Source: Anaerolineae bacterium
GTDB lineage: Bacteria > Chloroflexota > Anaerolineae > Anaerolineales > E44-bin32
Length of the DNA: 39,403 nt
Assembly (NCBI GenBank): GCA_011174845.1
Contig: DUEW01000078.1
Location: 1-39,403, forward strand
Direction of reading: 5' to 3'
Every line of letters starts with the position of its first letter. Position 1 is the first letter of the stretch. The position numbers and the translations under genes are program-made. The notes under the pieces were generated by a model. That model saw nothing but the letters and a program-made list of their open reading frames with translations, made no database searches and was not told the DNA's origin. Below, piece after piece: positions 9,795 through 31,991 of this stretch.

Positions 9795-12716
9795 ATGGTC
9801 CATGAACAAGTAGCAGAAGCAAACCGCGAATTCATACATGAAATGGGTCACGCTATATGCGAGATGCATTTCGACCGAATGACTCGATTGCTCTACAGCA
9901 CCGATGCGAGCATTTACCAGATGATTCCGGTAGGGGTCGCGATCCCCCGAGATGAAGAAGAGATCGCTGCTGCAATTGAGATCGCCGATCGTTACCATGT
10001 TCCGATCCTCGCTCGTGGTGGCGGAAGCAGTCTTGCTGGACAAGCAGTTGGTCATGCGTTGGTACTTGATTTTTCCCGCTACCTCGATCACATCCTCGAG
10101 ATCAATCCCGAAACAAGAACTGTTCGCACACAACCAGGCATCACCCTCCATGCGCTCAACAAATCCCTTCGTCCTTACGGTCTTATGTACGGCCCAGACC
10201 CGGCCAGTGGCGAACGTGCGACCATGGGGGGTATCTTAGGAAACAATTCGACCGGTGCTCACTCCATCGTCTATGGCATGACAGTCGATCATGTTCTCAC
10301 AACCGACGTCATCCTTGCTGATGGCGCTCGCACCCGTTTCGAGGCGCATGATTTAAAAAATTGGGAAACCCGCAGTAAACGTCCCGGTATTGAGGGTTCG
10401 ATTTATCATGCCATTCCAGACATTCTGGAACGCTACGGACATCAAATCGCGACGAGGTATCCAAAAATATTTCGCCACGTTGCGGGTTATAACCTAAATC
10501 AACTGGCTGGAAGTGATGCGCCAAATCTTGCCAAATTAATCGTGGGCTCTGAAGGAACGCTGGGCGTCATCACTGAGATGACCCTAAACCTCGTTCCCAT
10601 CCCTACATTCAAGCGATTGGCCATGGTCCACTTCTCCGAACTAACTGCCGCAATGGATGCGGTACCGATCCTTCTTGAGAGTGATCCCACGGCCATCGAA
10701 GTGCTCGATAAGATGCTGTTCAGATTAACGAGAGACCGAATTGAATATAAACGCTTGTTGACCTTCGTCGAGGGTGATCCAGAGATTGTACTCCTCGTCG
10801 AGTATTCAGGAGAAACCGAATCCGAGCTTGATGCCGGTATCGAAAGATTACAAGAAAAGCTGAACCAGATACACCAACACGACCCGGTGATCATCGTCGC
10901 TGATCCTGAAGGTCAAGCCAATGTCTGGTTTGTGCGTAAGGTTGGATTGGGCATTCTGATGAGCATCCGGGGTGATGCTAAACCGATCCCCTTCATCGAA
11001 GATGCCACCGTGCCTGTCGAGCATCTCACAAACTACGTCACCAGCATTTTCGACTTCGCACACGACGTGGGTGTGGAACAGGTGGCGATGTACGCGCATG
11101 CGAGCGCTGGTTGTCTACATATCCGCCCACTTGTGAATCTGAAAAATGCTGATGGTGTGCGACAACTGCGTCAAATCGCTGAAAAGTCCGTGGAGCTGGT
11201 GACCGAGTATGGGGGCACGACGAGTGGCGAACACGGCGAAGGATTGGCTCGGGGAGAGTTCTCAGAAAAGTTATTTGGACCGGAGCTCGTCCAAGCTTTT
11301 CGTGAAGTGAAGCAGGCATTCGATCCCAAAGGACTCATGAATCCCGGCAAGTTGGTCGACGTGCCCAGGATGGATGATCAGGCTCTGCTTCGCTTCGGTG
11401 CAGACTATGCTGTGCCCCACGAGCCTCGTGAAACGGTCTTCAGCTTCGCAAGCGATGGCGGTTTCGCCGCGGCGGTCGAAATGTGCAACGGGGCTGGCGT
11501 TTGCCGACAGTTGGAACTCGGCGTGATGTGTCCCTCCTTTCAGGTTACGCGCCAAGAGGCACATAGTACACGTGGTCGTGCCAACGCACTGCGTGCGGCT
11601 ATGATGGGTCTCCTCGGACCAGAGGGGATGACTGCCCAAGAACTGTATAAGGTATTGGACCTGTGCCTTTTGTGTCATGCATGTAAAGCTGAGTGCCCTT
11701 CAGCTGTGGATATGGCTAAGCTCAAGGCCGAATTTCTTCACAATTACTATCAACATCACGGCATCCCTCTCCGTTCACGACTTTTCGGAAACATCGCTAA
11801 AATCTACAAAATGGCTCATACCTTTGCACCATTTGCAAACGTGGTACTAAATGGACCGGCAAAATGGTTCATGATGCATTTAGGTGTTCACCCAAAGCGA
11901 CCAATGCCACAGCTTTCTTCACAACGCTTCAGCACCTGGTTTCAGCAGAACTATGGCTACACGAAAGGGCCAAGTAGCGGGGATAGGAAGGTCGTCTTTT
12001 TCCACGATACCTTCACCGAACATAACCACCCTCACATCGGACAAGCCGCGATTAAAGTGCTACAAGCTGCCGGTTATGAACCTATTCTGTTACCTGATAA
12101 AGCTTGCTGTGGACGTCCCGCTGTGTCAAAGGGGCTTCTCGATGAAGCCGCACGTTTAGCACGTCACAATATTCGATTGCTCGCCCCTTATGCAAGGGAG
12201 GGCATTCCAATTGTTGGAATCGAGCCAAGCTGCATGACGATGCTGGTAAACGAATATCTTGATCTTGTGCCCGGAAATGAAGCAAAAGCTGTGGCTGAGG
12301 TCACGACGACGATCGAGGCCTTGATTGTAGAAGCGGCTGAATCGGGGAATCTTAACCTGCGTTTCAAGAATTCCCCACGTAATGTTCTCTTCCACGGACA
12401 CTGCCAACAAAAATCGATTTTCGGAACTGCGACCACCCACAAACTGTTACAACTCATCCCAAATTGTAGGCTCGAGGAGATAGAAACGGGGTGTTGTGGT
12501 ATGGCGGGATCTTTTGGTTATGAGGAAGAACATTACGAGTTATCGGTCAAGTTGGCTGAAATGTCCCTCGCCCCAACCATACGGGGTGCGTCAGAAACAA
12601 CGATCATTTGTGCCAGCGGAACCTCGTGTAGAGAACAGATCGAACATACGACAGGCCGCCAGGCATTACATCCCATCGAGGTGTTTGCTGAAGCAATGAT
12701 CGTAGACGAGTCATGA
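9795..12716 (+). CDS. Fused FAD-binding (GlcD/D-lactate dehydrogenase type) and Fe-S/CCG-domain (GlcF type) oxidoreductase
   Basis: 973 aa; PCMH-type FAD motif (ARGGGSSLAGQAVG, GGILGNNSTGAHS), Cys-rich Fe-S region CLLCHACKAECP, and two CCG motifs (KACCGRPAVSKG, TGCCGMAGSFGYE). Confidence 0.93.
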   Translation: MVHEQVAEANREFIHEMGHAICEMHFDRMTRLLYSTDASIYQMIPVGVAIPRDEEEIAAAIEIADRYHVPILARGGGSSLAGQAVGHALVLDFSRYLDHILEINPETRTVRTQPGITLHALNKSLRPYGLMYGPDPASGERATMGGILGNNSTGAHSIVYGMTVDHVLTTDVILADGARTRFEAHDLKNWETRSKRPGIEGSIYHAIPDILERYGHQIATRYPKIFRHVAGYNLNQLAGSDAPNLAKLIVGSEGTLGVITEMTLNLVPIPTFKRLAMVHFSELTAAMDAVPILLESDPTAIEVLDKMLFRLTRDRIEYKRLLTFVEGDPEIVLLVEYSGETESELDAGIERLQEKLNQIHQHDPVIIVADPEGQANVWFVRKVGLGILMSIRGDAKPIPFIEDATVPVEHLTNYVTSIFDFAHDVGVEQVAMYAHASAGCLHIRPLVNLKNADGVRQLRQIAEKSVELVTEYGGTTSGEHGEGLARGEFSEKLFGPELVQAFREVKQAFDPKGLMNPGKLVDVPRMDDQALLRFGADYAVPHEPRETVFSFASDGGFAAAVEMCNGAGVCRQLELGVMCPSFQVTRQEAHSTRGRANALRAAMMGLLGPEGMTAQELYKVLDLCLLCHACKAECPSAVDMAKLKAEFLHNYYQHHGIPLRSRLFGNIAKIYKMAHTFAPFANVVLNGPAKWFMMHLGVHPKRPMPQLSSQRFSTWFQQNYGYTKGPSSGDRKVVFFHDTFTEHNHPHIGQAAIKVLQAAGYEPILLPDKACCGRPAVSKGLLDEAARLARHNIRLLAPYAREGIPIVGIEPSCMTMLVNEYLDLVPGNEAKAVAEVTTTIEALIVEAAESGNLNLRFKNSPRNVLFHGHCQQKSIFGTATTHKLLQLIPNCRLEEIETGCCGMAGSFGYEEEHYELSVKLAEMSLAPTIRGASETTIICASGTSCREQIEHTTGRQALHPIEVFAEAMIVDES

Positions 12717-12766: not shown

Positions 12767-13966
12767 ATGTCCACCGCACGAGAGAAATGGACCATGCGTC
12801 AGCGGGTTTTAGCCACGCTCCAGGGGAGGAAACCCGATCGCATTCCTTTCATCGATCGGATTGATTTCTGGTACAAGGGTCGAAATCACCAAGGAAAAAT
12901 GCCTGAAGAGTTTCAAGGTATGTCCTTGCCCGAGGTCCATCGTGCGATCGGTTTCGGCCACCAGGATTGGGATTACCCCTATACCATCAAATACAGGAAT
13001 GCTGAAATCATCCTTACTTTTGAAGGGGAAAGGATATTTCACGAAGTCGATCCTGAGTTCACAAACTTCCCTACCCTCTGGGGATGGATTCCAATCGATA
13101 AAGCAGGTGTCACAACGACTGAACTGATCACACCTGCGGGCAAGTTATCCTATCACCATCGTTTGCTTGAAGAGAGCATCTCTTCAGGCACCACGCGGCC
13201 TCAAATGATCTCTCATCCGATTAAGGAATTAGACGATTTCAACACCTACGAGTACATCATCGAACATGCAGAATTTATACCCCGGTATCAAGATTTTTAT
13301 CAGCGCGAAGCAGAAATTGGGGATCATGGATATCTCGTTCCAATCATCGAACGCATCCCGTTTCAGCATATACTTATCGATGCAATTGGCGAGATTGAAA
13401 CCTTTTACACATTGCATGACAGCCCTAAGCAATTCCAACGATTGCTTACCGTCCTCGACGAACAAGTTACCGACAAGCTCAAGAAACTAGCCGATTTCTC
13501 GGCACCCTATGTTGAATTTACCGACAATCTTGATGGTTTCATGACCAATCCCAGACTCTTCCAAAAGTATGTTCTTCCTGCATATCAGCGATATTGTGAT
13601 ACCCTACACGACCAAGGAAAGAAAGTGGGAGACCACACCGATGGGGACCTCAAGAATCTTGTGCATCTACTACATGATACGGGCTTGGATGTATGTGAAT
13701 CGTTCACACCAGCTCCAACCACCAGCTGCACCTTTGAAGAGGTTTGGGAGGCGTGGCAAGGCGGTCCCTTGATATGGGGCGGGATCGCATCCTATTATCT
13801 CGAGCAAAGGGTGAGCGATTCAGAGTTCCTCCAACATATCGAGCATCTATTACAGCTCATCGGTAAGCGTCCCATCATCCTCGGTGTGGGTGACGCAGTG
13901 ATGAGCGATAACGACCTCGAGCGAGTAAGATATATCGCAGAGAGAATCGAGAACCATCCGCTGTGA
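12767..13966 (+). CDS. Uroporphyrinogen decarboxylase (URO-D)-family protein, probable corrinoid-dependent methyltransferase component
   Basis: 399 aa; MRQRVLATLQGRKPDRIPF opening, KKVGDHTDGDLKNLVHLLHDTGLDVCESFTP; immediately upstream of a corrinoid protein gene. Confidence 0.82.
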   Translation: MSTAREKWTMRQRVLATLQGRKPDRIPFIDRIDFWYKGRNHQGKMPEEFQGMSLPEVHRAIGFGHQDWDYPYTIKYRNAEIILTFEGERIFHEVDPEFTNFPTLWGWIPIDKAGVTTTELITPAGKLSYHHRLLEESISSGTTRPQMISHPIKELDDFNTYEYIIEHAEFIPRYQDFYQREAEIGDHGYLVPIIERIPFQHILIDAIGEIETFYTLHDSPKQFQRLLTVLDEQVTDKLKKLADFSAPYVEFTDNLDGFMTNPRLFQKYVLPAYQRYCDTLHDQGKKVGDHTDGDLKNLVHLLHDTGLDVCESFTPAPTTSCTFEEVWEAWQGGPLIWGGIASYYLEQRVSDSEFLQHIEHLLQLIGKRPIILGVGDAVMSDNDLERVRYIAERIENHPL

Positions 13967-14026
13967 GGATGATTCTCGTTACAGGATCGCGACTGAAGCA
14001 ACAACTTGATCGCTAGGAGCATATGT

Positions 14027-14662
14027 GTGAACGAAATTTTGGAATCCATCCAAACCGCAGTGTTAAAAGGGAACTTGAAAGATGCTCAGGAACAAGTCGA
14101 ACGGGCGCTAGGATCCGGTTTATCTCCAGCTGACATCTTGCATGAGGGATTGATCTCTGCCATGACAGAAGTCGGGCGGCTCTTTGAAGAGGGAGAGTAT
14201 TATGTGCCCGAAATGCTCATCGCGGCCAGAGCGATGAAAGGGGGCTTAGCGATCCTCAAACCACTTCTTGCCGAAACGGATGTCCAACCGCTTGGAAAGA
14301 TCGCCCTCGGAACAGTTAAAGGCGATTTACACGACATCGGCAAAAATCTGGTGAGTATGATGCTGGAAGGTGCCGGATTTGAGGTCGTGGACTTAGGCGT
14401 AGATGTCGCCCCTGAAATATTCGTCGATACGATAGAATCTGGAGGGATCGATATCCTCGGCATGTCGGCTTTGCTCACGACCACGATGCCACTTATGAAA
14501 GCCACAATTGATGCTTTAGTTCAAGCTCAGTTGCGCGACCAAGTAAAAGTTATCATCGGGGGCGCGCCAGTAACCCAATCCTACGCAGATGATATCGGCG
14601 CTGACGGGTACGCACCGGATGCCAGCCGAGCCGCCTCCCTAGCAAAATCGCTCTTAAGCTGA
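14027..14662 (+). CDS. Corrinoid (B12-binding) methyltransferase protein, MtbC/MtaC-like
   Basis: GKIALGTVKGDLHDIGKNLVSMMLEGAGFEVVDLGVDV contains the DxHxxG B12 motif. The listed ORF begins with TTG at 14006; GTG at 14027 with AGGAGC at 14015-14020 is the more likely start. Confidence 0.92.
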   Translation: MNEILESIQTAVLKGNLKDAQEQVERALGSGLSPADILHEGLISAMTEVGRLFEEGEYYVPEMLIAARAMKGGLAILKPLLAETDVQPLGKIALGTVKGDLHDIGKNLVSMMLEGAGFEVVDLGVDVAPEIFVDTIESGGIDILGMSALLTTTMPLMKATIDALVQAQLRDQVKVIIGGAPVTQSYADDIGADGYAPDASRAASLAKSLLS

Positions 14663-20341: not shown

Positions 20342-21796
20342 ATGACCTTGATGACGGCGGACGCGTATATTGATAGTCTACGACAAATGAAAAAACGGGT
20401 TTTCATGTTCGGTGATGAGATCGAAGATCCTACCGATCACCCGATGATACAGCCCTCTGTAAATGCTGTATGCATGACATACGAATTAAGCCATCATACC
20501 GACCATGAAGCCCTGCTCACTGTCGAATCGAGTCTCACCGGGGAAAAAATCAACCGATTCACACACCTCCATCAAGGCACGGACGATTTGGTACAGAAGG
20601 TTAAAATGCTGCGCCTGTTGGGACAATGCACTGGATGTTGTTTTCAACGATGTGTCGGGATGGATAGCTTCAATGCCCTAGATATCGTCACAACCAAAAT
20701 GGATCAAGCATTAGGGACCGAATACAATGTAAGGTTCAGAGAGTATCTGAAACATGTCCAAGCTGAAGACTTGGTGGTGGATGGTTGTATGACCGATCCC
20801 AAGGGAAATCGAGGTCTTCCACCAGCAGAGCAATCAGATCCCGACTTATTCGTCCGCATCATCGATGAGAACAATGAAGGGATCACGATCCGCGGCGCGA
20901 AAGTCCATCAAACAGGCGCTATTAATTCACATGAGATCTTGGTGATGCCCACACGATCTCTCAAAGAAGCTGATGAAGATTACGCTGTCGCTTGTGCTAT
21001 TCCCGCAGATGACGAAGGGATCCTCTATGTTTACGGCAGGCAAGCTAGTGACACGCGTAAACTAGAAGGTGGCAACATCGATGTAGGAAATATTCGCTTT
21101 GGAGGACACGAGGCCGTGGTGATTTTCAATGATGTATTTGTTCCATGGGAACATGTGTTCATGAGCGGTGAATACCCGTATGCAGGTGAACTCGTTGAGA
21201 CCTTTGCTGCATATCACAGATCGAGTTATGGGGGGTGCAAAGTCGGCGTGGGTGATGTTCTCATTGGCGCGACAAAGCTCATCGCCAAATACCACGGCGT
21301 TGAGAACGCGTCCCATATCAAGGACAAACTCGTTGAGATGATCCATCTCAATGAAACACTCTATGCGTGCGGATTAGCATGCTCTACCGAGGGGGCGAGA
21401 ACTTCCTCGGGGACTTACCTCGTCGATATGACTCTGGCAAATATCTGCAAGCTAAACGTGACACGTTTTCCCTATCAAATCGCCAGCATCGCTCAAGATA
21501 TCGCTGGCGGGCTGATGGTCACAATGCCCTCTGAAAAGGATTTTTCCCATCCCGAAGTTGGACCCTTGCTGAAAAAATATTTGGTCGGCGCAGAACCATA
21601 CCCCACCGAATGGCGTCAACGTATCCTACGATTGATTGAAAACTTAACGCTTGGACTTGGTGCGGTTGGTTATTTAACTGAGTCAATGCACGGCGCCGGC
21701 TCGCCCATGGCTCAGAGGATCATGCTCTCCCGTTTAGCCGATTTGGAGCATAAGGAAAAACTTGCGGCAGCTATCGCTGGGATTAATGACCATTAA
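20342..21796 (+). CDS. abfD: 4-hydroxybutyryl-CoA dehydratase / vinylacetyl-CoA delta-isomerase (AbfD type; HpaB superfamily)
   Basis: 484 aa; near full-length resemblance to the clostridial enzyme as recalled; SLTGEKINRFTHLHQGTDDLVQKVKMLRLLGQ, CFQRCVGMD and YHRSSYGGCKVGVGD keep the expected Cys/Cys/His/Cys [4Fe-4S] ligand pattern; ESMHGAGSPMAQRIM. Confidence 0.92.
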   Translation: MTLMTADAYIDSLRQMKKRVFMFGDEIEDPTDHPMIQPSVNAVCMTYELSHHTDHEALLTVESSLTGEKINRFTHLHQGTDDLVQKVKMLRLLGQCTGCCFQRCVGMDSFNALDIVTTKMDQALGTEYNVRFREYLKHVQAEDLVVDGCMTDPKGNRGLPPAEQSDPDLFVRIIDENNEGITIRGAKVHQTGAINSHEILVMPTRSLKEADEDYAVACAIPADDEGILYVYGRQASDTRKLEGGNIDVGNIRFGGHEAVVIFNDVFVPWEHVFMSGEYPYAGELVETFAAYHRSSYGGCKVGVGDVLIGATKLIAKYHGVENASHIKDKLVEMIHLNETLYACGLACSTEGARTSSGTYLVDMTLANICKLNVTRFPYQIASIAQDIAGGLMVTMPSEKDFSHPEVGPLLKKYLVGAEPYPTEWRQRILRLIENLTLGLGAVGYLTESMHGAGSPMAQRIMLSRLADLEHKEKLAAAIAGINDH

Positions 21797-21921: not shown

Positions 21922-23505
21922 ATGGCAGTTCTTTGTCGAAGGAAAGATCATCAGTACTACGACTCAGTGACATTGATGACCGTAGCCCGTCAATTAAAAT
22001 CCCTCCCGGGGATCGAAGACGCCGCGCTTGTGATGGGGACGATTGCCAATAAAGATCTACTAAGACAAGTTGAACTCTTTACGCCCGAGGTGGAAGATGC
22101 GACTTCGAGCGACCTGATTATTGTACTCAAAGGGGATGGGGCAAGTGTTCGCCAGGCGATTGACAAGGCTGAAGTCCTTCTGACTCGTAGGACAATTCAA
22201 ACGAAGACGATCGAAGAACATCTGCCTCGAACATTGCGTAGCGCGATTCGATTGTATCCAGAGTCAAATCTGGCGGTGATCTCCCTTCCTGGGCAGCACG
22301 CCGTGTCTGAAACATGGCATGCCCTACACCATGGATTGCATGTCCTTCTCTTCAGCGATAATGTATCGCTTGCCGACGAAATTGCCTTGAAACGCTATGC
22401 TGTTGATAACAACTTGCTCATGATGGGACCTGGGGCAGGCACAGCCATTATCAACGGTGTGGCGCTTGGTTTCGGAAACGCCCTTCCACGTGGACCCGTA
22501 GGTATTGCCTCCGCAGCCGGGACCGGATTGCAAGAGGTAAGCACCCTGCTCGCTAAACAAGGGGTTGGGATCTCACAAGGTATCGGTGTTGGCGGTCGTG
22601 ATCTCTCCGACGAAGTCGATGCCATGATGATGATCCAGGCTATAGAAGCATTGCAGACGGATCAGGAGACCGAAGTCATCGTCGCCATCTCGAAGCTCCC
22701 CACACCAAGGGTGGCTGAAAAGGTGGGGGCAAAGTTAAACGCAGGGAAACCCGCAGTGGTGATTTTCATGGGAGAGAGCCTTACACCATCCCCCTACGCA
22801 AAGCAGATCGATCAAGGAAGGATTATCTATACGAGCACTTTGCAGGAAGCTGCCTTGAAAGCAGCGATGTTGGCCACAGACGGTGATCTCGCTACAGTGG
22901 AGTCCCAGCTTGCCCAACAGATGAGCGATCTACAGAAACAGGCACGTAATCTGGCCTCCTTGATCAAACCCGAACAGAAATTCCTGCGGGGTTTATTTAG
23001 CGGTGGTACGCTTTGTGAAGAGGCGATGCGAATATGGGATGAAAAGGTCCGGCCTGTGTGGTCCAATCAACCATTGAAGCAAGAATGGAAATTACCTGAC
23101 TCGAAGAGCAGTTATCAACATTGTGCCTTGGATTTAGGAGCGGAGGAATTTACTGTGGGACGCCCCCATCCGATGATCGATCATGATCTGCGAATCACAC
23201 GTTTGCTAGAAGAGGCCAGCGATCCTTCCGTGGCAGTGATCCAGATGGACGTCGTGCTCGGATACGGCGCACATCCTGACCCGGCCAGTGAACTAAGTCC
23301 CGCCATCGAGAAGGCGAACGGAATCGCGCTTGAGAATGAGCGATCCTTGATAGTCGTGCTCTCAATCACCGGGACAAATGAAGATCCGCAAAACGTGGGG
23401 GACCAACAGGATGCCTTCCAGAAAGCAGGGGCGATCGTACTTGAGAGTAATGCAGCAGCATCATGGCTTGCAGCAATGGTAGTCGAAGAACTCATCCTAG
23501 AATAA
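21922..23505 (+). CDS. FdrA (AllF)-family protein, succinyl-CoA-synthetase-alpha-like fold
   Basis: QYYDSVTLMTVARQLKSLPGIEDAALVMGTIANKDLL, LLFSDNVSLADEIALKRYAVDNNLLMMGPGAGTAI, GIGVGGRDLSDEVDAMMM, VGRPHPMIDHDLR, AVIQMDVVLGYGAHPDPASEL. Listed start is 21871; ATG 21922 with GGAG at 21911 fits FdrA N-termini better. Confidence 0.9.
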   Translation: MAVLCRRKDHQYYDSVTLMTVARQLKSLPGIEDAALVMGTIANKDLLRQVELFTPEVEDATSSDLIIVLKGDGASVRQAIDKAEVLLTRRTIQTKTIEEHLPRTLRSAIRLYPESNLAVISLPGQHAVSETWHALHHGLHVLLFSDNVSLADEIALKRYAVDNNLLMMGPGAGTAIINGVALGFGNALPRGPVGIASAAGTGLQEVSTLLAKQGVGISQGIGVGGRDLSDEVDAMMMIQAIEALQTDQETEVIVAISKLPTPRVAEKVGAKLNAGKPAVVIFMGESLTPSPYAKQIDQGRIIYTSTLQEAALKAAMLATDGDLATVESQLAQQMSDLQKQARNLASLIKPEQKFLRGLFSGGTLCEEAMRIWDEKVRPVWSNQPLKQEWKLPDSKSSYQHCALDLGAEEFTVGRPHPMIDHDLRITRLLEEASDPSVAVIQMDVVLGYGAHPDPASELSPAIEKANGIALENERSLIVVLSITGTNEDPQNVGDQQDAFQKAGAIVLESNAAASWLAAMVVEELILE

Positions 23506-23672
23506 CCAGACTTTGCGCGGGAGGTGCATCCTAGTACGGATGATCAAAATGAAGAAAGGCAAACATCGTCACATTGAAATCAATCTCAAACGATCGAATC
23601 CTGCGATCCACTTTCGTTGTAAAAATCTCTGTCAGAATTGCGTCCATCCACGGACACACTGGAGGACAAAAC

Positions 23673-24365
23673 ATGGATATGGATATTGAAATCTATCTAA
23701 GACCGCCGGAATTGGAGACACCACCTTACCCACCAAAGGTGATCACCTTGTCTACAGGCAAGAAAATGATCGTTCGTCAGGTGGATCGTGAGGCGGTTCC
23801 AATCCTGCTCCAAGCGGTAAAACCTACGCTTGAGATCGAACGTGATTATTACGACATCGTCGGTGCCCGAGTGTACGCAGAGCTTCTGGGTTGGTATCGT
23901 TACCGCGTTCGAGACGAATTCTGTCTCATCGGACAGATCGATGGATTGCTCGTGGGGATCGTGAATACTAGAAGTTATTCCCCTCAGGTCGATATCAGTT
24001 TACATACGTTGGCCATAGAACGCGGTCTACGCATCGGAGCTCATCTTTTCGCCGCCAAGATGGAATACTCGATCGAATATTTGGGGCGTGAGGAAGTTCT
24101 CATCACAGCCGAAAGTCCAATTGGTTTCCGACGCTGGATGATCGAATACGAACTAGAGATGCGTGATGGTCAACATGAATTAGGCGGTGCTACACCCTAT
24201 GCCCTGACTCGAGAATTGTATTTCCGCAATAAGGATCGGTTGGTAGCTGGTGAGCGACCCGTGCCTCCTGAATTGATGGAGTTCGCTGAGAGGGAGATCA
24301 TCGTTGCCAGTGAAGATGACATCCTTGAGAAAATATTAGGTGCAAAGAGGAGGGAGATCCGATGA
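23673..24365 (+). CDS. Uncharacterised protein, possibly GNAT (N-acetyltransferase)-like
   Basis: About 230 aa; ATG 23673 preceded by GGAGG at 23661-23665; layout FCLIGQIDGLLVGIVNTRSYSPQVDISLHTLAIERGLRIGAHLFAAKMEY is GNAT-like but divergent. Overlaps the next gene by 4 nt (ATGA). Confidence 0.75.
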   Translation: MDMDIEIYLRPPELETPPYPPKVITLSTGKKMIVRQVDREAVPILLQAVKPTLEIERDYYDIVGARVYAELLGWYRYRVRDEFCLIGQIDGLLVGIVNTRSYSPQVDISLHTLAIERGLRIGAHLFAAKMEYSIEYLGREEVLITAESPIGFRRWMIEYELEMRDGQHELGGATPYALTRELYFRNKDRLVAGERPVPPELMEFAEREIIVASEDDILEKILGAKRREIR

Positions 24366-25546
24366 GACCCGTCGTAGTAGCAGGCGTGGGTATGATCCCG
24401 TTTGAACGACGGGATGAGGACAGTTTGGTCGATATGCTGGCCATGGCAGGTTGGAATGCCATGGAGGACGCACAACTGGGTGACCGATCGATCGATGCTG
24501 TGTACGTTGGAAATATGGCCTCGGGCCTCTTCAACCATCAAGAATCCGTCGCGAGCGCCCTTGTTGACCGACTTGGCTTGATGCCAGCGGCGGCAGAAAG
24601 GATTGAAAACGGTCCCGCATCAGGCGGTTCGGCTGTAAAGAACGGTTTCCTTGGAGTAGCTTCTGGATTTTACGACATCGTATTGGTCGTCGGTGGTGAG
24701 AAGATGCGAGAGGTGATCGGGCCAAAGGCGACGGATGTCGTCGCCTGCATGACCCATCCGCAGGCTGAGTACATCTACGGTGTAACCCTGCCAGCGTTGG
24801 CCGGGATGTTTACGCGTCTCTATATGGAGAAGTACGGTGTCACCCATGAGCACTTGGCCATGGTGGCGATCAAGAACCAAGAGAATGGGCTGCTCAACCC
24901 CTACGCACACATCCAAATGAAGATCACCATGGAAGGTATTCTCACCCACCCACAGGCACACATTAACAGTCCGATCGTCGCTGATCCGTTGCGACTTTAC
25001 GACTGCTGCCCAGTCAGCGACGGTGCTGCCGCGATTTTGATAACCACGGAAGAGATCGCGCAAAAGCTCAAGAGACCCATCGTGACGATCGCCGGTGTGG
25101 GGCAAGCCACCGACACCCACACCCTTCAAGAGCGAAGCGATCCCACTGATCTAAGAGCGGTGAGGATCTCTTCACAACAGGCATTTAAAATGGCCGGGTT
25201 GAAACCTAAAGACATCCACGTTGCTGAGTTACATGACGCTTTCACAATTCTCGAGATCGCAGAAAGCGAACACGTAGGCTTCTTCTCCAAAGGAAAGGGT
25301 GCCAAAGCACTGGCGGATGGAGAGACCCGTATCGATGGCAAGCTCCCCATCAACCCTTCCGGCGGGCTGAAAGCTCGAGGCCATCCGGTCGGTGCGACCG
25401 GCGTAGCGCAAATCGTGGAGCTTGTCTGGCAACTTCGTGGCGAAGCGGGTGAGCGTCAGGTTAAGGATGCTTCCAATGGCTTTTCGCTGAACTTCGGTGG
25501 GTTTGGTAACAACGTGCTCGCTTTCGTTCTGAGGAGAGAAGCATGA
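24362..25546 (+). CDS. Thiolase-fold protein (SCP2/lipid-transfer-type), atypical active site
   Basis: 394 aa; AELHDAFTILEIAE, GGLKARGHPVGATGVAQ; but IENGPASGGSAV has Pro where thiolases have the nucleophilic Cys. Confidence 0.92.
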   Translation: MRPVVVAGVGMIPFERRDEDSLVDMLAMAGWNAMEDAQLGDRSIDAVYVGNMASGLFNHQESVASALVDRLGLMPAAAERIENGPASGGSAVKNGFLGVASGFYDIVLVVGGEKMREVIGPKATDVVACMTHPQAEYIYGVTLPALAGMFTRLYMEKYGVTHEHLAMVAIKNQENGLLNPYAHIQMKITMEGILTHPQAHINSPIVADPLRLYDCCPVSDGAAAILITTEEIAQKLKRPIVTIAGVGQATDTHTLQERSDPTDLRAVRISSQQAFKMAGLKPKDIHVAELHDAFTILEIAESEHVGFFSKGKGAKALADGETRIDGKLPINPSGGLKARGHPVGATGVAQIVELVWQLRGEAGERQVKDASNGFSLNFGGFGNNVLAFVLRREA

Positions 25547-25881
25547 AAACCATAACAGCGTACAAATGCAAGGATTGCGGTCATGTGATGTACCCACATC
25601 ACTATCGCTGCCTAAATTGTAATGGTCTTGACTTCAAAGAAATCTCACCAACAACCAAAGGCAGGTTGTTGACCTATACCATTGTCGATCAACTTCCATG
25701 GGGTATTGATGAACGAGGGCGCGTATTAGGTGTTGTCGAGTTCGACAACGGTGTGAAGGCGTTGGGCGTGATCAAAACGGCAAAACCTAGAATTGGGATG
25801 AGACTTAAAGTCGGTTGGCAACCGGTCCGCGTAATCAGCGGCGAGAAGGTATATGGCCTCACATTCCGAAAAACGAAGTGA
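25543..25881 (+). CDS. DUF35 / Zn-ribbon OB-fold protein
   Basis: 112 aa; CKDCGHVMYPHHYRCLNCN zinc ribbon then OB-fold; overlaps upstream thiolase (ATGA) and the downstream gene. Confidence 0.92.
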   Translation: MKTITAYKCKDCGHVMYPHHYRCLNCNGLDFKEISPTTKGRLLTYTIVDQLPWGIDERGRVLGVVEFDNGVKALGVIKTAKPRIGMRLKVGWQPVRVISGEKVYGLTFRKTK

Positions 25882-27259
25882 TCTCTTCGATCAACCGATC
25901 ACAGTTATCAATATCGGTCTGACCGGATTTTCTGAAAGCCTACGTCAACAAGGGGTTCCGGTTATCGATGTAGATTGGCGTCCCCCTCCCGAGGGTATCC
26001 CCCGGTTAACCCACACCAAATCGGGTGCTTCGATCGAGGAAGCCAACAAAGAAACCGCGAGACGTATCATGGCAGGGCGTCCCGAGATCGTCGGCTTAGA
26101 TCTCGCGAAGCATGTGATCCCAGGCATGAGCGAACGGACCATCCTTCATGCAGGTCCTCCAATCCATTGGGAGCGGATGTGCGGTCCGACTCGTGGTGCA
26201 GTGATGGGCGCGTTGGTCTACGAGAGATTGGCTCGATCACCAGAGGCTGCGGCTGAACTTTCCGCAAGCGGTGAAATCACATTCGACCCTTGCCATCATC
26301 ATCACGCTGTAGGGCCGATGGCGGGAATCATCTCACCCTCTATGCCGGTTTGGATCATCGAGAACGCTGAGTTCGGTAACCGTGCTTATTGCACGTTGAA
26401 CGAGGGGCTGGGCAAAGTACTCCGCTACGGGGCTTTCGGCGAGGATGTTTACCGACGCCTTCGATGGATGGCCGATGTGCTGTATCCAACTTTGGCAGCC
26501 GCGTTCGAACGAGCGGGTCCGATCGATCTGAGAGCGATGATCGCTCAAGCCCTGCATATGGGAGACGAGTGTCATAACCGCAATCGTGCAGGAACATCTC
26601 TCTTCCTTCGAGCCATTACCCCCGCAATGGCTCGAACATGTGAGGACGGCGAACGCCTGGCACAGGTCATCGAATTTATCAACGAGAACGACCACTTCTT
26701 CCTCAATCTCTCGATGCCGGCGGCAAAAGCCATGCTTGAACCGGCTGAGGGAATTGAGGGATCGACCATTTTAACCGTGATGGCTCGCAATGGGACAGAT
26801 TTTGGCATCCGAATGGCAGGAGACCCGGATCGTTGGTTCACCGCACCCGCCGGGATCGTTGAAGGATTATTCTTGCCCGGCTTCAGCGCTGATGACGCCA
26901 ATCCAGATATTGGGGACAGCACGATCACCGAGACCGCTGGTTTTGGCGGCTTTGCTATGGCGGCTGCTCCGGCGATCGCCAGTTTCGTCGGCGGTACTGC
27001 TCAAGATGCCCTCAACTCGACTTTCGAGATGTACGAGATCTGCTACACCGAGCATGAACACTTCTCCATCCCGACGCTCGACTTTCGCGGTACGCCGATG
27101 GGAATCGATGTCCGGTTCGTGATGGAAACTGGGATACTTCCCAAACTCAACACCGGTATTGCCCACAAGGATCCCGGCATCGGCATGGTCGGAGCAGGAA
27201 TCTTACGCGCACCGAAAGAATGCTTCATAGAAGCATTTGAGGCGATCAAGAACTGGTAG
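25853..27259 (+). CDS. DUF1116 (YlbE/YahG/AllG)-family protein
   Basis: 468 aa; TILHAGPPIHWERMCGPTRGAVMGALVYE, DPCHHHHAVGPMAGIISPSMPVW, NRAYCTLNEGLGKVLRYGAFGEDV, FTAPAGIVEGLFLPGF, INTGIAHK-like LNTGIAHKDPGIGMVGAG. Confidence 0.93.
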   Translation: MASHSEKRSDLFDQPITVINIGLTGFSESLRQQGVPVIDVDWRPPPEGIPRLTHTKSGASIEEANKETARRIMAGRPEIVGLDLAKHVIPGMSERTILHAGPPIHWERMCGPTRGAVMGALVYERLARSPEAAAELSASGEITFDPCHHHHAVGPMAGIISPSMPVWIIENAEFGNRAYCTLNEGLGKVLRYGAFGEDVYRRLRWMADVLYPTLAAAFERAGPIDLRAMIAQALHMGDECHNRNRAGTSLFLRAITPAMARTCEDGERLAQVIEFINENDHFFLNLSMPAAKAMLEPAEGIEGSTILTVMARNGTDFGIRMAGDPDRWFTAPAGIVEGLFLPGFSADDANPDIGDSTITETAGFGGFAMAAAPAIASFVGGTAQDALNSTFEMYEICYTEHEHFSIPTLDFRGTPMGIDVRFVMETGILPKLNTGIAHKDPGIGMVGAGILRAPKECFIEAFEAIKNW

Positions 27260-27319
27260 CTACATAGGGCTTCGGTTCAGTCTCTGTTAATGCGATCAAT
27301 ATTTGGAGGGATGTAGACA

Positions 27320-28168
27320 ATGAAAATCATCGATCTCACCATACCTCTCGGGATCGGCACCCCACCGTGGCCGACCTATGAACCTTTGCAGGTTAAATAC
27401 TTCAAACGGCTTGCACCAAATGGAGCCAACGGACAGATTGTCACCCACTCAAACCATCTGGGTACCCATTTAGACGGCGAAATTCACTTCTACACCCCTG
27501 GCAAGGATATCGCATCCCTGGATTTTGATTTCCTTTATGGTCCTGCCGTGATCGTCGATCTCTCGGATGTGGCCGGTGATTACGACATTTACACCTCGAA
27601 AATGGTTGAAGAACGGGTGGACGTCCACGAGGGCGACATCCTGATCATCCACACCGGTTACCATCGATACGGTTGGGATCAACCGACCGCCGATGAAATC
27701 CGTTATATGGTCAAGCACCCTGGTCCGGATCGTGAGTTCGCCGAGTGGTGCAAGGCGAAAAAGCTCAAGTGGTTAGGTGTGGATTGTGGTAGCGCTGATC
27801 ATCCGATGAACACCATTGTCCGCACGTGGATGCCTCGGCAAGCGAAGGAAGCGGAGACACATTTCGAGAATAAATACGGGAAACCGCTGGCTGATGTCTT
27901 CACCGACGATAAATATCAACTCATGCACATCGAGTTGTTCCCCCATGGGATCATCCACGCGGAGTGCATGGGAGGTGACATTGATCTCCTGCTAAACGAA
28001 CGAGTGGATATCGGTTGCTTCCCCTGGCGTTTCGTGGACGGTGAATCCTGCATCAGCCGCATCGTCGCATTCGTAGATGATGACCGATACGCCGAGCTTA
28101 TGGAAAAGAAGAAAAGCTTTCCTTTGACCAAATTTGGTGATTGTGTATGCCAGCGACCTCAGATCTGA
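27320..28168 (+). CDS. Cyclase / kynurenine formamidase-isatin hydrolase superfamily metal-dependent hydrolase
   Basis: 282 aa; HLGTHLDGEIHF matches the HxGTHxDxxxHF metal-binding motif; GGAGGG RBS upstream. Confidence 0.92.
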   Translation: MKIIDLTIPLGIGTPPWPTYEPLQVKYFKRLAPNGANGQIVTHSNHLGTHLDGEIHFYTPGKDIASLDFDFLYGPAVIVDLSDVAGDYDIYTSKMVEERVDVHEGDILIIHTGYHRYGWDQPTADEIRYMVKHPGPDREFAEWCKAKKLKWLGVDCGSADHPMNTIVRTWMPRQAKEAETHFENKYGKPLADVFTDDKYQLMHIELFPHGIIHAECMGGDIDLLLNERVDIGCFPWRFVDGESCISRIVAFVDDDRYAELMEKKKSFPLTKFGDCVCQRPQI

Positions 28169-28265
28169 TATTAAAACATTGATGAATAGGATGGATGGAT
28201 ATCATTCTGAAAAGTTTAAAACCTTTCGTCGAGCGCAGGACACTTCACGACTTATACCGAGGGGC

Positions 28266-28301
28266 TCAGGATGACAAACCGAAGAGACAATGTCATTCTG
28301 A
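28266..28301. repeat. Imperfect inverted repeat TCAGGATGACA ... TGTCATTCTGA within a non-coding repeat-rich spacer
   Basis: 28266-28276 and 28291-28301; 10 of 11 complementary positions. Confidence 0.6.
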
Positions 28302-28320
28302 ATACTTGTTAGACAAGCTC

Positions 28321-28358
28321 TCCTCGGCAGGCTCGGGACAAGCAGGACAGGTATTAGG
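28321..28358 (+). repeat. Dispersed non-coding repeat, copy 1 (tcctcggcaggctcgggacaagcaggacaggtattagg)
   Basis: Resembles 37921-37958 (tccttcggcaggctcaggacagggctcggtacaggtagg). Confidence 0.6.
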
Positions 28359-28687
28359 CGTGAAGAAACCCTGTGATTCGACAATTTCTAGGACTTCACT
28401 ATAGGGATCCTGCGCGGAGCCATGGCATCTTTTCTTTGATTCCCTCTCACAAGGAAACGAAAATTCAGTCCGAGAGGCTGCCAAACAAATTATTCTGCTT
28501 GGACACACCTCGGGATCAAACACAATGGCTGGCTTCCTTGCACTATTCAATGGGGTTGAACAAGTCCTTCAACCTTCACGGTTTAGCGATTAAGCTGAGT
28601 GAAAAGAATACTATAGGTACACCCCTTAGGGTACGCAACACAGGCTGAAGCCTGCGTCTACAACATCGTCATTTCGAAGGAATAAGC

Positions 28688-28768: not shown

Positions 28769-29575
28769 TTATTCTACAAGCTCTAACGCTATGAGCGCTG
28801 CACCTAGCGCCCCCATAAGTTGAGGATGGCGTGGGATGATCACCTCCTCACCAGTCTCCTCCTGCAGGATTTGCGGAATCGCCGGATTACGAACCACGCC
28901 TCCTGAAAGCATGAGAGGTGGTCTGAGTCCGACGGTTCGGATCATCGCCACAACGCGTTTAATTAGCGAGCGATGCAATCCTTTGAGGATAGGCTCCGTG
29001 GCAACGCCATGGGCGATGAGTGAGATAACTTCCGATTCAGCGAAGACAGTACAGGTACTGGAAATTGAGACCTCCTCCACTGTCGAGAGGGTCACTTCGC
29101 CCAATCGGTCTAAATGTACACCTAATCGATTAGCGGTGTTCTCGAGAAATCTACCTGTGCCAGCCGCGCATTTATCGTTCATCGAGAAATCTACCACCTC
29201 CCCCTTTGGGCTGATTCCGATGACCTTGCTGTCCTGACCGCCAATGTCAACCAAAGTGCCGCCATGGCCAAGCTCTCGAAATACCCCCCTTGCATGGCAG
29301 GTGATCTCAGTAACCGTACGCGTGGCTTGGTGAACAAGTTTGCGTCCATAACCAGTCGCTATGAGAGGGACGCCGATTTCCCGTTCACCTTCGATAGGAA
29401 CAGAGAGTATTGGCGTGACTTCACGAGCGAGTTCCAGAAATTTCTCAACTTGTTTTCCAACTTGAGGATCTGCTTGCTCCAATACATGCCATATGATTCG
29501 ACCGTCATCGTCAATCCCGACGATCTTGGCGGTCGTGGAACCCACATCGATTCCCAATGCCCGTACCTCGGCCAT
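28769..29575 (-). CDS. BadF/BadG/HgdC-type ATPase, 2-hydroxyacyl-CoA dehydratase activator
   Basis: ALGIDVGSTTAKIVGIDDDG ASKHA motif; MNDKCAAGTGRFLENTANRLG and SSTCTVFAESEVISLIAHG carry the two cluster-ligand Cys. Start ATG 29575 lies two nt past the upstream stop; listed 29641 start is less likely. Confidence 0.93.
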   Translation of the reverse strand: MAEVRALGIDVGSTTAKIVGIDDDGRIIWHVLEQADPQVGKQVEKFLELAREVTPILSVPIEGEREIGVPLIATGYGRKLVHQATRTVTEITCHARGVFRELGHGGTLVDIGGQDSKVIGISPKGEVVDFSMNDKCAAGTGRFLENTANRLGVHLDRLGEVTLSTVEEVSISSTCTVFAESEVISLIAHGVATEPILKGLHRSLIKRVVAMIRTVGLRPPLMLSGGVVRNPAIPQILQEETGEEVIIPRHPQLMGALGAALIALELVE

Positions 29576-29577
29576 CT

Positions 29578-30900
29578 CTATCTCTCCAACATTTCTACAA
29601 AAGCAGCCAGCCGATTGGCGACTTGCTGCTCGGCAAAACAACGGAAATCATTGTGATCCGCCTCCAGCAACAAGGCTGGCTTCTCAAACTCTCGTATCAG
29701 TCGATCGCGCTGATCCATCTGACCGATGGAGTAAGGTTTACAGGATCGATCAGAATGAAGGATAACACCGTCAAGATGATACTCCTCAATCATTCGCTGC
29801 ATGGTTTTTAGTTTATGCCCTGTGCTACGGTTGAGGATGACATAGATGCAAGCGAGGGCTAAAGATTCCAATCCTCTCTCAACATCATAGTAGCGGGCCA
29901 ACTCACCCCAAGCGTTGGTATAAGTTGAAGCCACGATAGCGACGCCGTTTTCTCCTAAGAATTCGGCCAGATACCGTAGCCTGTACCAGATGGGCAAGTT
30001 ATCCCAAAGCAAACGTTTCTTTTCTCCCTTCACAGCCCCGATTCCATTCGCGATACGTTCATCAACCTCCTTCAGCATGGCGGCATAGAAATCAACCGTT
30101 TCAGCATCCCCACGCATTTCTACGATGGGAGCCATCTGGATGAATTGATCGATCACCGAGATCGGCGCAGGTTGATGCTGGTTACGCTCTATAATCTCCA
30201 GCCACAGCTCGGTAGCCATTTTACTTAACCGACCGACCTCCTTTAATTTGCGTTCCTGAAGCGATTTGCCCGCAACCTGTTCAGCCACCGGGATAGCTTG
30301 CTCCAATTGACGCAGCACGAATTGCAGAGCGTGCTCGGTCGCCTCAGAGTGATAAACGAAGGGGGTATCGATGACGATCAGGGGGATGTTGAAATGTCGA
30401 GCCAGCACCCGATACCAGAAGAGAACGGTCTGGCAGATATTCGTACAAGCCAGGAGAAGGTCAGGCCGAGGAAGTTTGCCAACGGGTGTCTTCCCCGAAA
30501 GCAGCGTACCAAAATCTGTGCGGGCGTAGGAACAGATGTCCTGCGAATATCCGGCCTCTTCCGCTACCGACATGATGTCTACTGCAACCCGGGCGGTGCC
30601 ACAGATCGCGGCGTGGTTTTCGGGATAGACGATGAAATAATCAAGTGCTTTGAGTAGCTCGGTTGGAGCGCCCGAGGTTACCCATGCAACTTTATGTCGC
30701 TGGTTTGCGTAATGACCTCGTAACCAATGCCGTGTGACGAGATCCTTATTCAGCCATGAAATCTTAAGTGGGGGGGCCAAATATTTGCTCTTCCAGCTGG
30801 CGCGCGAGATTTCTGCCCTCAACCAGATATTCAAGCGCAGGAGCGAGTGGCTGAGGATATTTACATTCCAGTGATAGAGAAGGGAATCGATGATACTCAT
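29578..30900 (-). CDS. 2-hydroxyacyl-CoA dehydratase / benzoyl-CoA reductase (HgdA/BcrC)-family subunit
   Basis: 440 aa; [54 protein letters not shown]. Confidence 0.9.
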
Positions 30901-31991
30901 CTGATCATCTCAAAGAAAGCCTCAATCCGGGTCGTAGCCTGACTGGATAATGGATCACTGATATCTACTTCGATCGACACTGTGGGAACGCCCAGGTCAC
31001 CCAAACCTTGACGTAGATCCGGAAGGTCGAACAATTCCGGTTCGCAGAACTTAACATTGTAGAAGATCACGCCTCGTGCGTCTGTGGCATCAATCATGCG
31101 GTGAAGATGATCGAGCCGATCTTGGATGGGACTCCCCCTACACCAGTCTGGCGGCCCGCCGAGGATACGTTCAGCCATGCGGAAGAAAGGATCCTCACTT
31201 CTCCCAGCAGGGTATAACCTCCGCCCACAACACGCCAGGTCATCAGCGACGACCCTGGCACCGAATTCGGAGATGGTTTTAAGCAATCCCATCGGTTCAG
31301 GAACGATGCCCGAAAGAATAATGGGAATGCCCTCTTGTTGACCCTCATAATCGGCGTCAAAGATGGATTGAGCAATATCTATGAAATCCTCGGCGGGAAG
31401 ATACTCACGTGTTCGTATGAGGCGGTAAAAATCGTGGTCCTTAAATTGTAGTCTCCCTCGCTGCTTATGCAGTCGTGCCAACAATTCATCCGCTACTTCC
31501 TCCCACTGGATGCTCTTCATGATCGTTTCATTCGATGGCGAGATCCCGGCAATCTCCTCCAAGCGTTGGTATAAAAACCGAAGTTCTTCTGCAAAGAAGA
31601 CCTCTCCTTGTTGACTCCCCCCTCTCGGCAGATAAAAAGGGATGACCGGTTGTTTAGGAGGGAGGAAATCCAACAAGATGCTACCTAAGCCTTGGAGAGA
31701 ATCACAAGCATGGGGGACCATGATGAGATCGGCAACATCTAACCCTCCCCCTAGTATGAAGGAGAGCGCATTGCGAACAACGGAACAAACATAGGGTTGC
31801 AGATGGGCAGATCCAAGGCTGACATCGACTCTAGGAGGACCCCACACCTCCATCGGGAGGATGTTGAACGCGAGCAAGAGGGCACGGGGGTAATGGATCG
31901 GTAACACAGCAGCGACCAATCCGCCTTGCTGTTTGAAGGCGCTCGCTACTTCGGACCGACGGGGAATCAAAACCGCATTTTCAGCTGTCAT
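30897..31991 (-). CDS. 2-hydroxyacyl-CoA dehydratase family subunit (HgdB-like)
   Basis: 364 aa; [87 protein letters not shown] overlap with next subunit. Confidence 0.9.

Follow-up and report, generated by a model that had tools for sequence, protein, structure and literature searches.

The six-gene operon at positions 21922 to 28168 of the 39,403-nucleotide stretch of Anaerolineae DNA analyzed here (the window, which is the entire contig C210; the draft genome comprises 3.13 Mb in 233 contigs and is 80.8% complete) is an eroded, truncated copy of a conserved operon that probably serves nucleobase catabolism. On the + strand, in the order originally predicted from the sequence, it encodes homologues of AllF (FdrA; 21922..23505), a GNAT-fold protein of 230 amino acids (23673..24365), a thiolase-fold protein (24362..25546), a DUF35 protein (25543..25881), AllG (DUF1116; 25853..27259) and a cyclase-family metal-dependent amidohydrolase (27320..28168). 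The predicted single-operon arrangement also stood: 4-nt ATGA overlaps join the GNAT and thiolase genes (at 24362) and the thiolase and DUF35 genes (at 25543), the DUF35 and DUF1116 genes overlap by 29 nt at 25853, and a 60-nt gap precedes the cyclase gene. Because the operon's permease, molybdenum hydroxylase and AllH are gone, the pathway in this genome is incomplete unless an AllH encoded on contig C190 or another molybdenum hydroxylase substitutes. For the intact operon, we give about an even chance to phosphorolytic, oxidative catabolism of pyrimidines, from uracil to acetyl-CoA with a gain of ATP.

The original prediction held that the FdrA/DUF1116 pair lacked AllH and that neither AllH nor carbamate kinase was recognizable, and in this it was wrong. 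A search of the genome with the AllH family (DUF2877, PF11392) gave two matches: the gene on C190 is intact, and window positions 28390-28542 hold a fragment that scored 28.1 bits, above the Pfam curated cut-off. The fragment belongs to a relic comprising the last 50 codons of the lost gene (28405..28554, +), which shares 70% identity over 50 amino acids with the C-terminal end of the intact AllH of sister genome G002 (locus L041), or 57% over 63 amino acids when one in-frame TAG just upstream of the 50-codon part is included. In L041, the interval between the cyclase gene and the gene for a 2-hydroxyacyl-CoA dehydratase activator contains CoxM-, CoxS- and CoxL-type molybdenum-hydroxylase subunits and the intact AllH. 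The shared flanks lie ∼600 bp apart in the window versus ∼5.5 kb in L041, a loss of ∼4.9 kb. In place of the molybdenum-hydroxylase genes and most of AllH, the window has a deletion scar of interspersed-repeat fragments (28212..28404, +). The sequences on either side of the scar correspond to L041 positions 10424 and 15893, and the scar holds an interspersed repeat (28258-28382) that is partially matched at 16 other places in the genome. A misassembly at the scar is possible, but the decay of the relic favors a real deletion.

The nearest homologues of the window are Anaerolineae metagenome-assembled genomes, and relatives from the same genus and the same family (Chloroflexota, Anaerolineae) carry FdrA-GNAT-thiolase-DUF35-AllG-cyclase followed by FAD, 2Fe-2S and molybdenum cofactor (MoCo) subunits and AllH. 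The operon appears to be eroding in the window's genus. Sister genome G004 (L042 / L056) is without AllF and GNAT, the thiolase-DUF35-AllG-cyclase-molybdenum hydroxylase-AllH series being otherwise present, and this gap reflects either independent erosion in the genus or a sequencing error.

To describe the operon more widely, we annotated by profiles, in six frames, 80 loci drawn from a collection of genome contigs, together with the neighborhoods of relatives. The carriers belong to Chloroflexota, Spirochaetota, Bacillota, Atribacterota and Bipolaricaulota and include the isolates Anaerospora hongkongensis and Longilinea arvoryzae; a scan of viral contigs with the cyclase gave no match. The recurring order is NCS2 permease, the molybdenum-hydroxylase genes MoM, MoS and MoL, AllF, AllG, cyclase, GNAT, thiolase, DUF35 and AllH. 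In the window's family the GNAT-thiolase-DUF35 block lies between AllF and AllG, whereas in most genomes the thiolase block follows the cyclase. Among the 59 loci of at least 12 kb, AllF was found in 57, the cyclase in 55, the MoCo subunit (MoL) in 47, AllH in 42, GNAT in 32, the thiolase in 31, DUF35 in 29 and the NCS2 permease in 23, counts that describe the AllG family and not all genomes, the loci having been chosen by AllG similarity. Optional members are a PucR regulator, a cytosine-deaminase-like protein, an amidase, a nitrilase-type amidase, a CoA-transferase III, and MmdA with a biotin carrier and OAD-beta. As a conserved operon the module differs from the allantoin operon, and the GNAT, thiolase and DUF35 genes are its conserved companions. 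AllH belongs to its ancestral form, and the AllH relic together with AllH in the relatives led us to reject the AllH-free, two-subunit enzyme that had been proposed. Of the two outcomes that the original prediction had named against itself, one came true, in that AllH and carbamate kinase occur elsewhere in the genome, but the other did not, since the arrangement is not unique to this contig.

The operon's conserved upstream genes encode a permease for nucleobases and a molybdenum hydroxylase, and a free nucleobase is therefore a more likely substrate than the CoA-pathway compound first suggested, which is doubtful; if CoA takes part at all, it would do so only in the last stage. The NCS2 permease of the A. 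hongkongensis cluster (L132) is a uracil permease with a score of 701 bits, the equivalog cut-off being 477 bits; the Chloroflexota permeases fall below the cut-off but match uracil permease better (212 bits) than xanthine permease (123 bits). The aligned NCS2 permeases retain T-x-Y-x-E-N, a motif of UraA-type uracil permeases, and cytosine-deaminase-like genes are present in some clusters. The molybdenum hydroxylase of the relatives' operons, absent from the window, is of the three-subunit XDH type. The window cyclase (PF04199, 109 bits) has an intact metal motif, HLGTHLDGEIH, matching HxGTHxDxxxH; its residues H46, G48, T49, H50, D52 and H56 are invariant in 37 homologues, and its structural model matches kynurenine formamidase and isatin hydrolase. 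The earlier guess of a related carbamoyl transfer or phosphorolysis with a ring-opening cyclase fits these data well.

AllF, whose start is best placed at 21922 by comparison with relatives, contains the Pfam domains CoA_binding and Ligase_CoA, scores 425.6 bits against the FdrA profile PRK06091 (profile positions 7-495 of 555) and matches structure 3dmy ('Protein fdrA', E 4.8e-68), and AllG scores 344 bits against PF06545 and matches 3clq (E 6e-132). In an alignment that included YlbE and FdrA, the AllF and AllG motifs were common to the window proteins and the E. coli enzyme, and it is plausible, because of these shared motifs, that the chemistry is the same. Window AllF lacks the last ∼50-residue element of E. 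coli FdrA, and FdrA profile positions 501-547 instead match residues 5-52 of window AllG, so that the FdrA C-terminal element is fused at the AllG N terminus (residues ∼14-52). To judge from the sequences, this element is mobile between subunits, being C-terminal in E. coli FdrA (L142), N-terminal in AllG of the window (25853-26010) and of L132, and in C190 a stand-alone open reading frame of ∼60 amino acids behind AllF (L007, ∼12571-12702, − strand). The AllH on C190 belongs to a second, divergent and intact AllH-AllG-AllF set (L007, 12718-16659, − strand) that adjoins a BMP-type ABC transporter and is probably an oxalurate-type enzyme; the arrangement resembles the allFGHK + bmpA-nupABC contigs of ammonia oxidizers (PMC12625717). 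In the AllG tree, long branches separate E. coli AllG and the C190 set from the cyclase-linked group, the position of E. coli being unsure. Carbamate kinase is encoded outside the window on C213, above the TIGR00746 cut-off, and was found in the window genome and all six close relatives examined (7/7; one gene is split over two contigs). Within clusters, it scored above the cut-off in L121 and L134 and was also matched in L128 and L131.

The route that we infer for the intact operon, meaning the substrate, every reaction of steps 2 to 4 and all of step 6, would run as follows. The NCS2 permease would import uracil, or a cytosine-deaminase-like enzyme would make it (step 1); the XDH-type molybdenum hydroxylase would add oxygen to give barbiturate (step 2); and the cyclase-family amidohydrolase would open the ring to yield ureidomalonate (step 3), an acylurea equivalent to oxalurate plus one CH2. 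AllF-AllG-AllH and phosphate would then split ureidomalonate into carbamoyl phosphate and malonamate (step 4), carbamate kinase would make ATP (step 5), and malonamate would be converted by way of malonyl-CoA to acetyl-CoA and CO2 (step 6). For step 6, some lineages may use an amidase or nitrilase-type amidase with a dicarboxylate CoA-transferase and others a Na+ decarboxylase; the clusters' CoA-transferase III is nearest to oxalate, glutarate and mesaconate enzymes, and MmdA, the biotin carrier and OAD-beta adjoin AllF in some loci. The window's lineage would use the GNAT-fold protein and the Cys-less thiolase/DUF35 pair, perhaps by GNAT-type amide thiolysis and a KSQ-like decarboxylation. 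The uracil route is the simplest path that joins a permease, a molybdenum hydroxylase, a ring-opening fold, an acylurea-splitting family and enzymes that would act on a dicarboxylic monoamide, on a dicarboxylate and on a CoA ester of the malonyl type; a thymine route through methylmalonyl intermediates would fit just as well.

The GNAT-like protein, whose gene start is better placed at 23673 (giving 230 amino acids, as in relatives), had no hit by sequence in Pfam, NCBIfam or PDB. Its AlphaFold model (pLDDT 88.9) matched GNAT N-acetyltransferases in Foldseek (best E 1.1e-7), which bears out the original assignment. The window thiolase (PF00108/PF22691) has ENGPASG where 6esq and 7yvy have ACASG, and keeps the His of HDAF and the GHPVGATG motif. 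ENGPASG occurs in 35 of 37 cluster thiolases, a few of them duplicates in which the same genome was read twice; the other two resemble unrelated thiolases, and Pro is present in all 35 operon copies. Because Pro replaces the nucleophilic Cys of the N-terminal domain of Claisen thiolases, the thiolase-fold protein is, as predicted from this residue, unable to use normal thiolase chemistry. Its partner is a DUF35 protein with a ChsH2-like zinc ribbon and OB fold (PF01796, PF12172; weak BbsA match), and the pairing, a 4-nt overlap in the window, is conserved across loci. GNAT was never found together with the CoA-transferase/amidase (0/59 loci, Fisher p 1.3e-4); on the AllG tree, the GNAT-DUF35 label needs 8 changes and the CoA-transferase/amidase label 6. 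In L081, L083 and L125, GNAT occurs with the MmdA/OAD-beta decarboxylase and without thiolase/DUF35. This exclusion, the label changes and the gene content of these three loci suggest, as a hypothesis from a phylogenetically uneven sample, that GNAT replaces the amidase plus CoA-transferase and that thiolase-DUF35 replaces the decarboxylase. The fuller proposal, a new energy-conserving anaerobic pyrimidine route in which AllFGH phosphorolyzes ureidomalonate and GNAT thiolysis and a Cys-to-Pro thiolase/DUF35 malonyl-CoA decarboxylase lead from malonamate to acetyl-CoA, is in our view rather unlikely.

Several observations, in addition to the choice of loci by AllG similarity, weigh against the uracil route. 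The permease of the Frackibacter cluster (L131) is closer to xanthine permease, carbamate kinase lies inside few clusters only, and PF04199 is not the known barbiturase family (PF09663), which gave no match in 12 genomes in a search made without a positive control. The dihydropyrimidinase of the reductive route is above its cut-off in 7 of 12 genomes, so that uracil may exit otherwise. The best MmdA model is methylmalonyl-CoA decarboxylase, which would fit thymine equally, the L131 amidase match is GatA, and the exclusion between GNAT and the CoA-transferase/amidase is partly phylogenetic.

A separate question, compatible with uracil catabolism by the intact operon, is whether the operon is dead or dying in the window genome, which we consider somewhat short of an even chance. 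In addition to the scar and relic, the assembly (80.8% complete) contained no NCS2 permease and no ortholog of the operon's molybdenum hydroxylase (paralogs only, best identity ∼38-40%), and sister G004 is without AllF and GNAT next to the thiolase gene. However, the six open reading frames are intact and under strong purifying selection (dN/dS 0.03-0.12 versus the sister genome), the window branch shows no increased distance to the outgroup, AllH and molybdenum hydroxylases are present elsewhere in the genome, and the incomplete assembly may be set against the missing genes. The low dN/dS and the unraised branch indicate either that the loss of operon parts was recent or that the enzymes left are still functional, perhaps helped by the C190 AllH.

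Another explanation is that the substrate is a different heterocycle, a purine (hypoxanthine or xanthine) or another N-heterocycle. Hydroxylation, ring opening by the cyclase and cleavage by AllFGH would follow as above, but carbamoyl phosphate would be released together with an amide or amine acid that is not malonamate. We regard this as possible though doubtful. Purines too are served by molybdenum hydroxylases and NCS2 permeases, the Frackibacter permease points in this direction, and regulators of the PucR type (purine catabolism regulatory-like) are found in Bacillota clusters. Against it stand the uracil-type permease of L132 and the TxYxEN motif, the malonyl/methylmalonyl-type decarboxylase genes in clusters, and the observation that the anaerobic urate markers SsnA, HyuA, YgeX and YgeW (PMC12507026) were not among the recurring families annotated.

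A second oxalurate-type oxamic transcarbamylase of the allantoin route, as in E. coli, is very improbable. The AllF, AllG and AllH families are all represented, the AllG motifs are conserved and carbamate kinase is in the genome, but no AllB/AllC/AllD/AllE-type genes were among the recurring families recognized in the loci, the tree sets E. coli AllG and C190 apart as described above, and the operon's neighbors, a molybdenum hydroxylase and a cyclase instead, led us to reject it as the principal explanation. Equally improbable is an AllH-independent FdrA-DUF1116 enzyme acting on an acyl-CoA substrate with GNAT, thiolase and DUF35: the tight gene overlaps in the window's lineage, the CoA-ligase fold of FdrA and purifying selection on six genes despite the loss of AllH would suit it, but the AllH relic is in place, AllH is intact in most homologous operons, the E. 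coli enzyme requires all three subunits (PMC11326118), and in most genomes the thiolase block is not between AllF and AllG.

Genes upstream of the operon for HpaB-like, acyl-CoA synthetase and acyl-CoA dehydrogenase proteins were rejected as pathway parts and treated as neighbors, because they are common only to sister locus L041 and not to the other homologous loci. At 20342-21796 the window encodes a protein of the HpaB family whose patterns, CTGCC...C and H...C, recall the [4Fe-4S] ligands of 4-hydroxybutyryl-CoA dehydratase and not a monooxygenase. Elsewhere in the window are a 2-hydroxyacyl-CoA dehydratase-like set of an activator and two HGD-D subunits (28769-31991, − strand), a UROD-type methyltransferase adjoining a B12-binding corrinoid protein, likely a methyl-transfer system (12767-14662), and an open reading frame of 2795 amino acids that runs off the contig end (3-8387, − strand) and whose part near the open end presumably resembles cyclic beta-glucan synthases.

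If the pyrimidine route is correct, many uncultured anaerobes (Anaerolineae and others) would have an undescribed nucleobase-degradation route, and AllFGH, shown in 2024 to act on oxalurate, would gain a second substrate. The operon would provide a candidate gene set for the oxidation of uracil to barbiturate. On the fuller proposal, the molybdenum hydroxylase would be a gene for uracil/thymine dehydrogenase, and GNAT thiolysis and thiolase/DUF35 decarboxylation would be new activities for both families. The operon also raises the question of the role of a thiolase-fold enzyme without a catalytic cysteine. In literature that covered subscription journals thinly, we found AllFGH described for oxalurate only and no oxidative anaerobic uracil pathway that uses it, which agrees with the original suggestion of an undescribed pathway. 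The cultured carriers A. hongkongensis and L. arvoryzae make the pathway directly testable.

In aerobic actinobacteria, the oxidative pyrimidine pathway consists of uracil dehydrogenase, barbiturase and ureidomalonase. The pathway proposed here would share its intermediates up to ureidomalonate, but the operon has a PF04199 ring opener in place of the AtzD/barbiturase family, and the last of these intermediates would undergo phosphorolysis with a gain of ATP and not hydrolysis to urea and malonate. The E. coli enzyme AllFGH (FdrA-YlbE-YlbF) catalyzes the reaction oxalurate + Pi ↔ oxamate + carbamoyl phosphate and is accompanied by AllK (PMC11326118). The operon has the same three protein families and AllF/AllG motifs, with carbamate kinase in some clusters or the genome. 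Its neighbors are, however, a permease, a molybdenum hydroxylase, a cyclase and CoA-type genes and not allantoin genes, the window has the FdrA C-terminal element on the AllG N terminus and AllH as a relic only, and the substrate is probably ureidomalonate. The anaerobic urate cluster removes a ureido group phosphorolytically for ATP, with the YgeW carbamoyltransferase and carbamate kinase (PMC12507026), and likewise has an XDH-type molybdenum enzyme; its carbamoyltransferase family is unrelated, and its markers are not among the recurring families here. The cyclase shares its fold and HxGTHxD metal motif with isatin hydrolase and kynurenine formamidase (PF04199) but differs in its low identity (14-22% in structural alignments), long C-terminal part and linkage to AllFG. 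Finally, the thiolase-DUF35 pair resembles the archaeal acetoacetyl-CoA thiolase (6esq), the benzoylsuccinyl-CoA thiolase BbsAB and the aldolase Ltp2-ChsH2 in its fold, its adjacent DUF35 and its HDAF and GHPxG motifs, whereas the operon copies have Pro in place of the catalytic Cys throughout.

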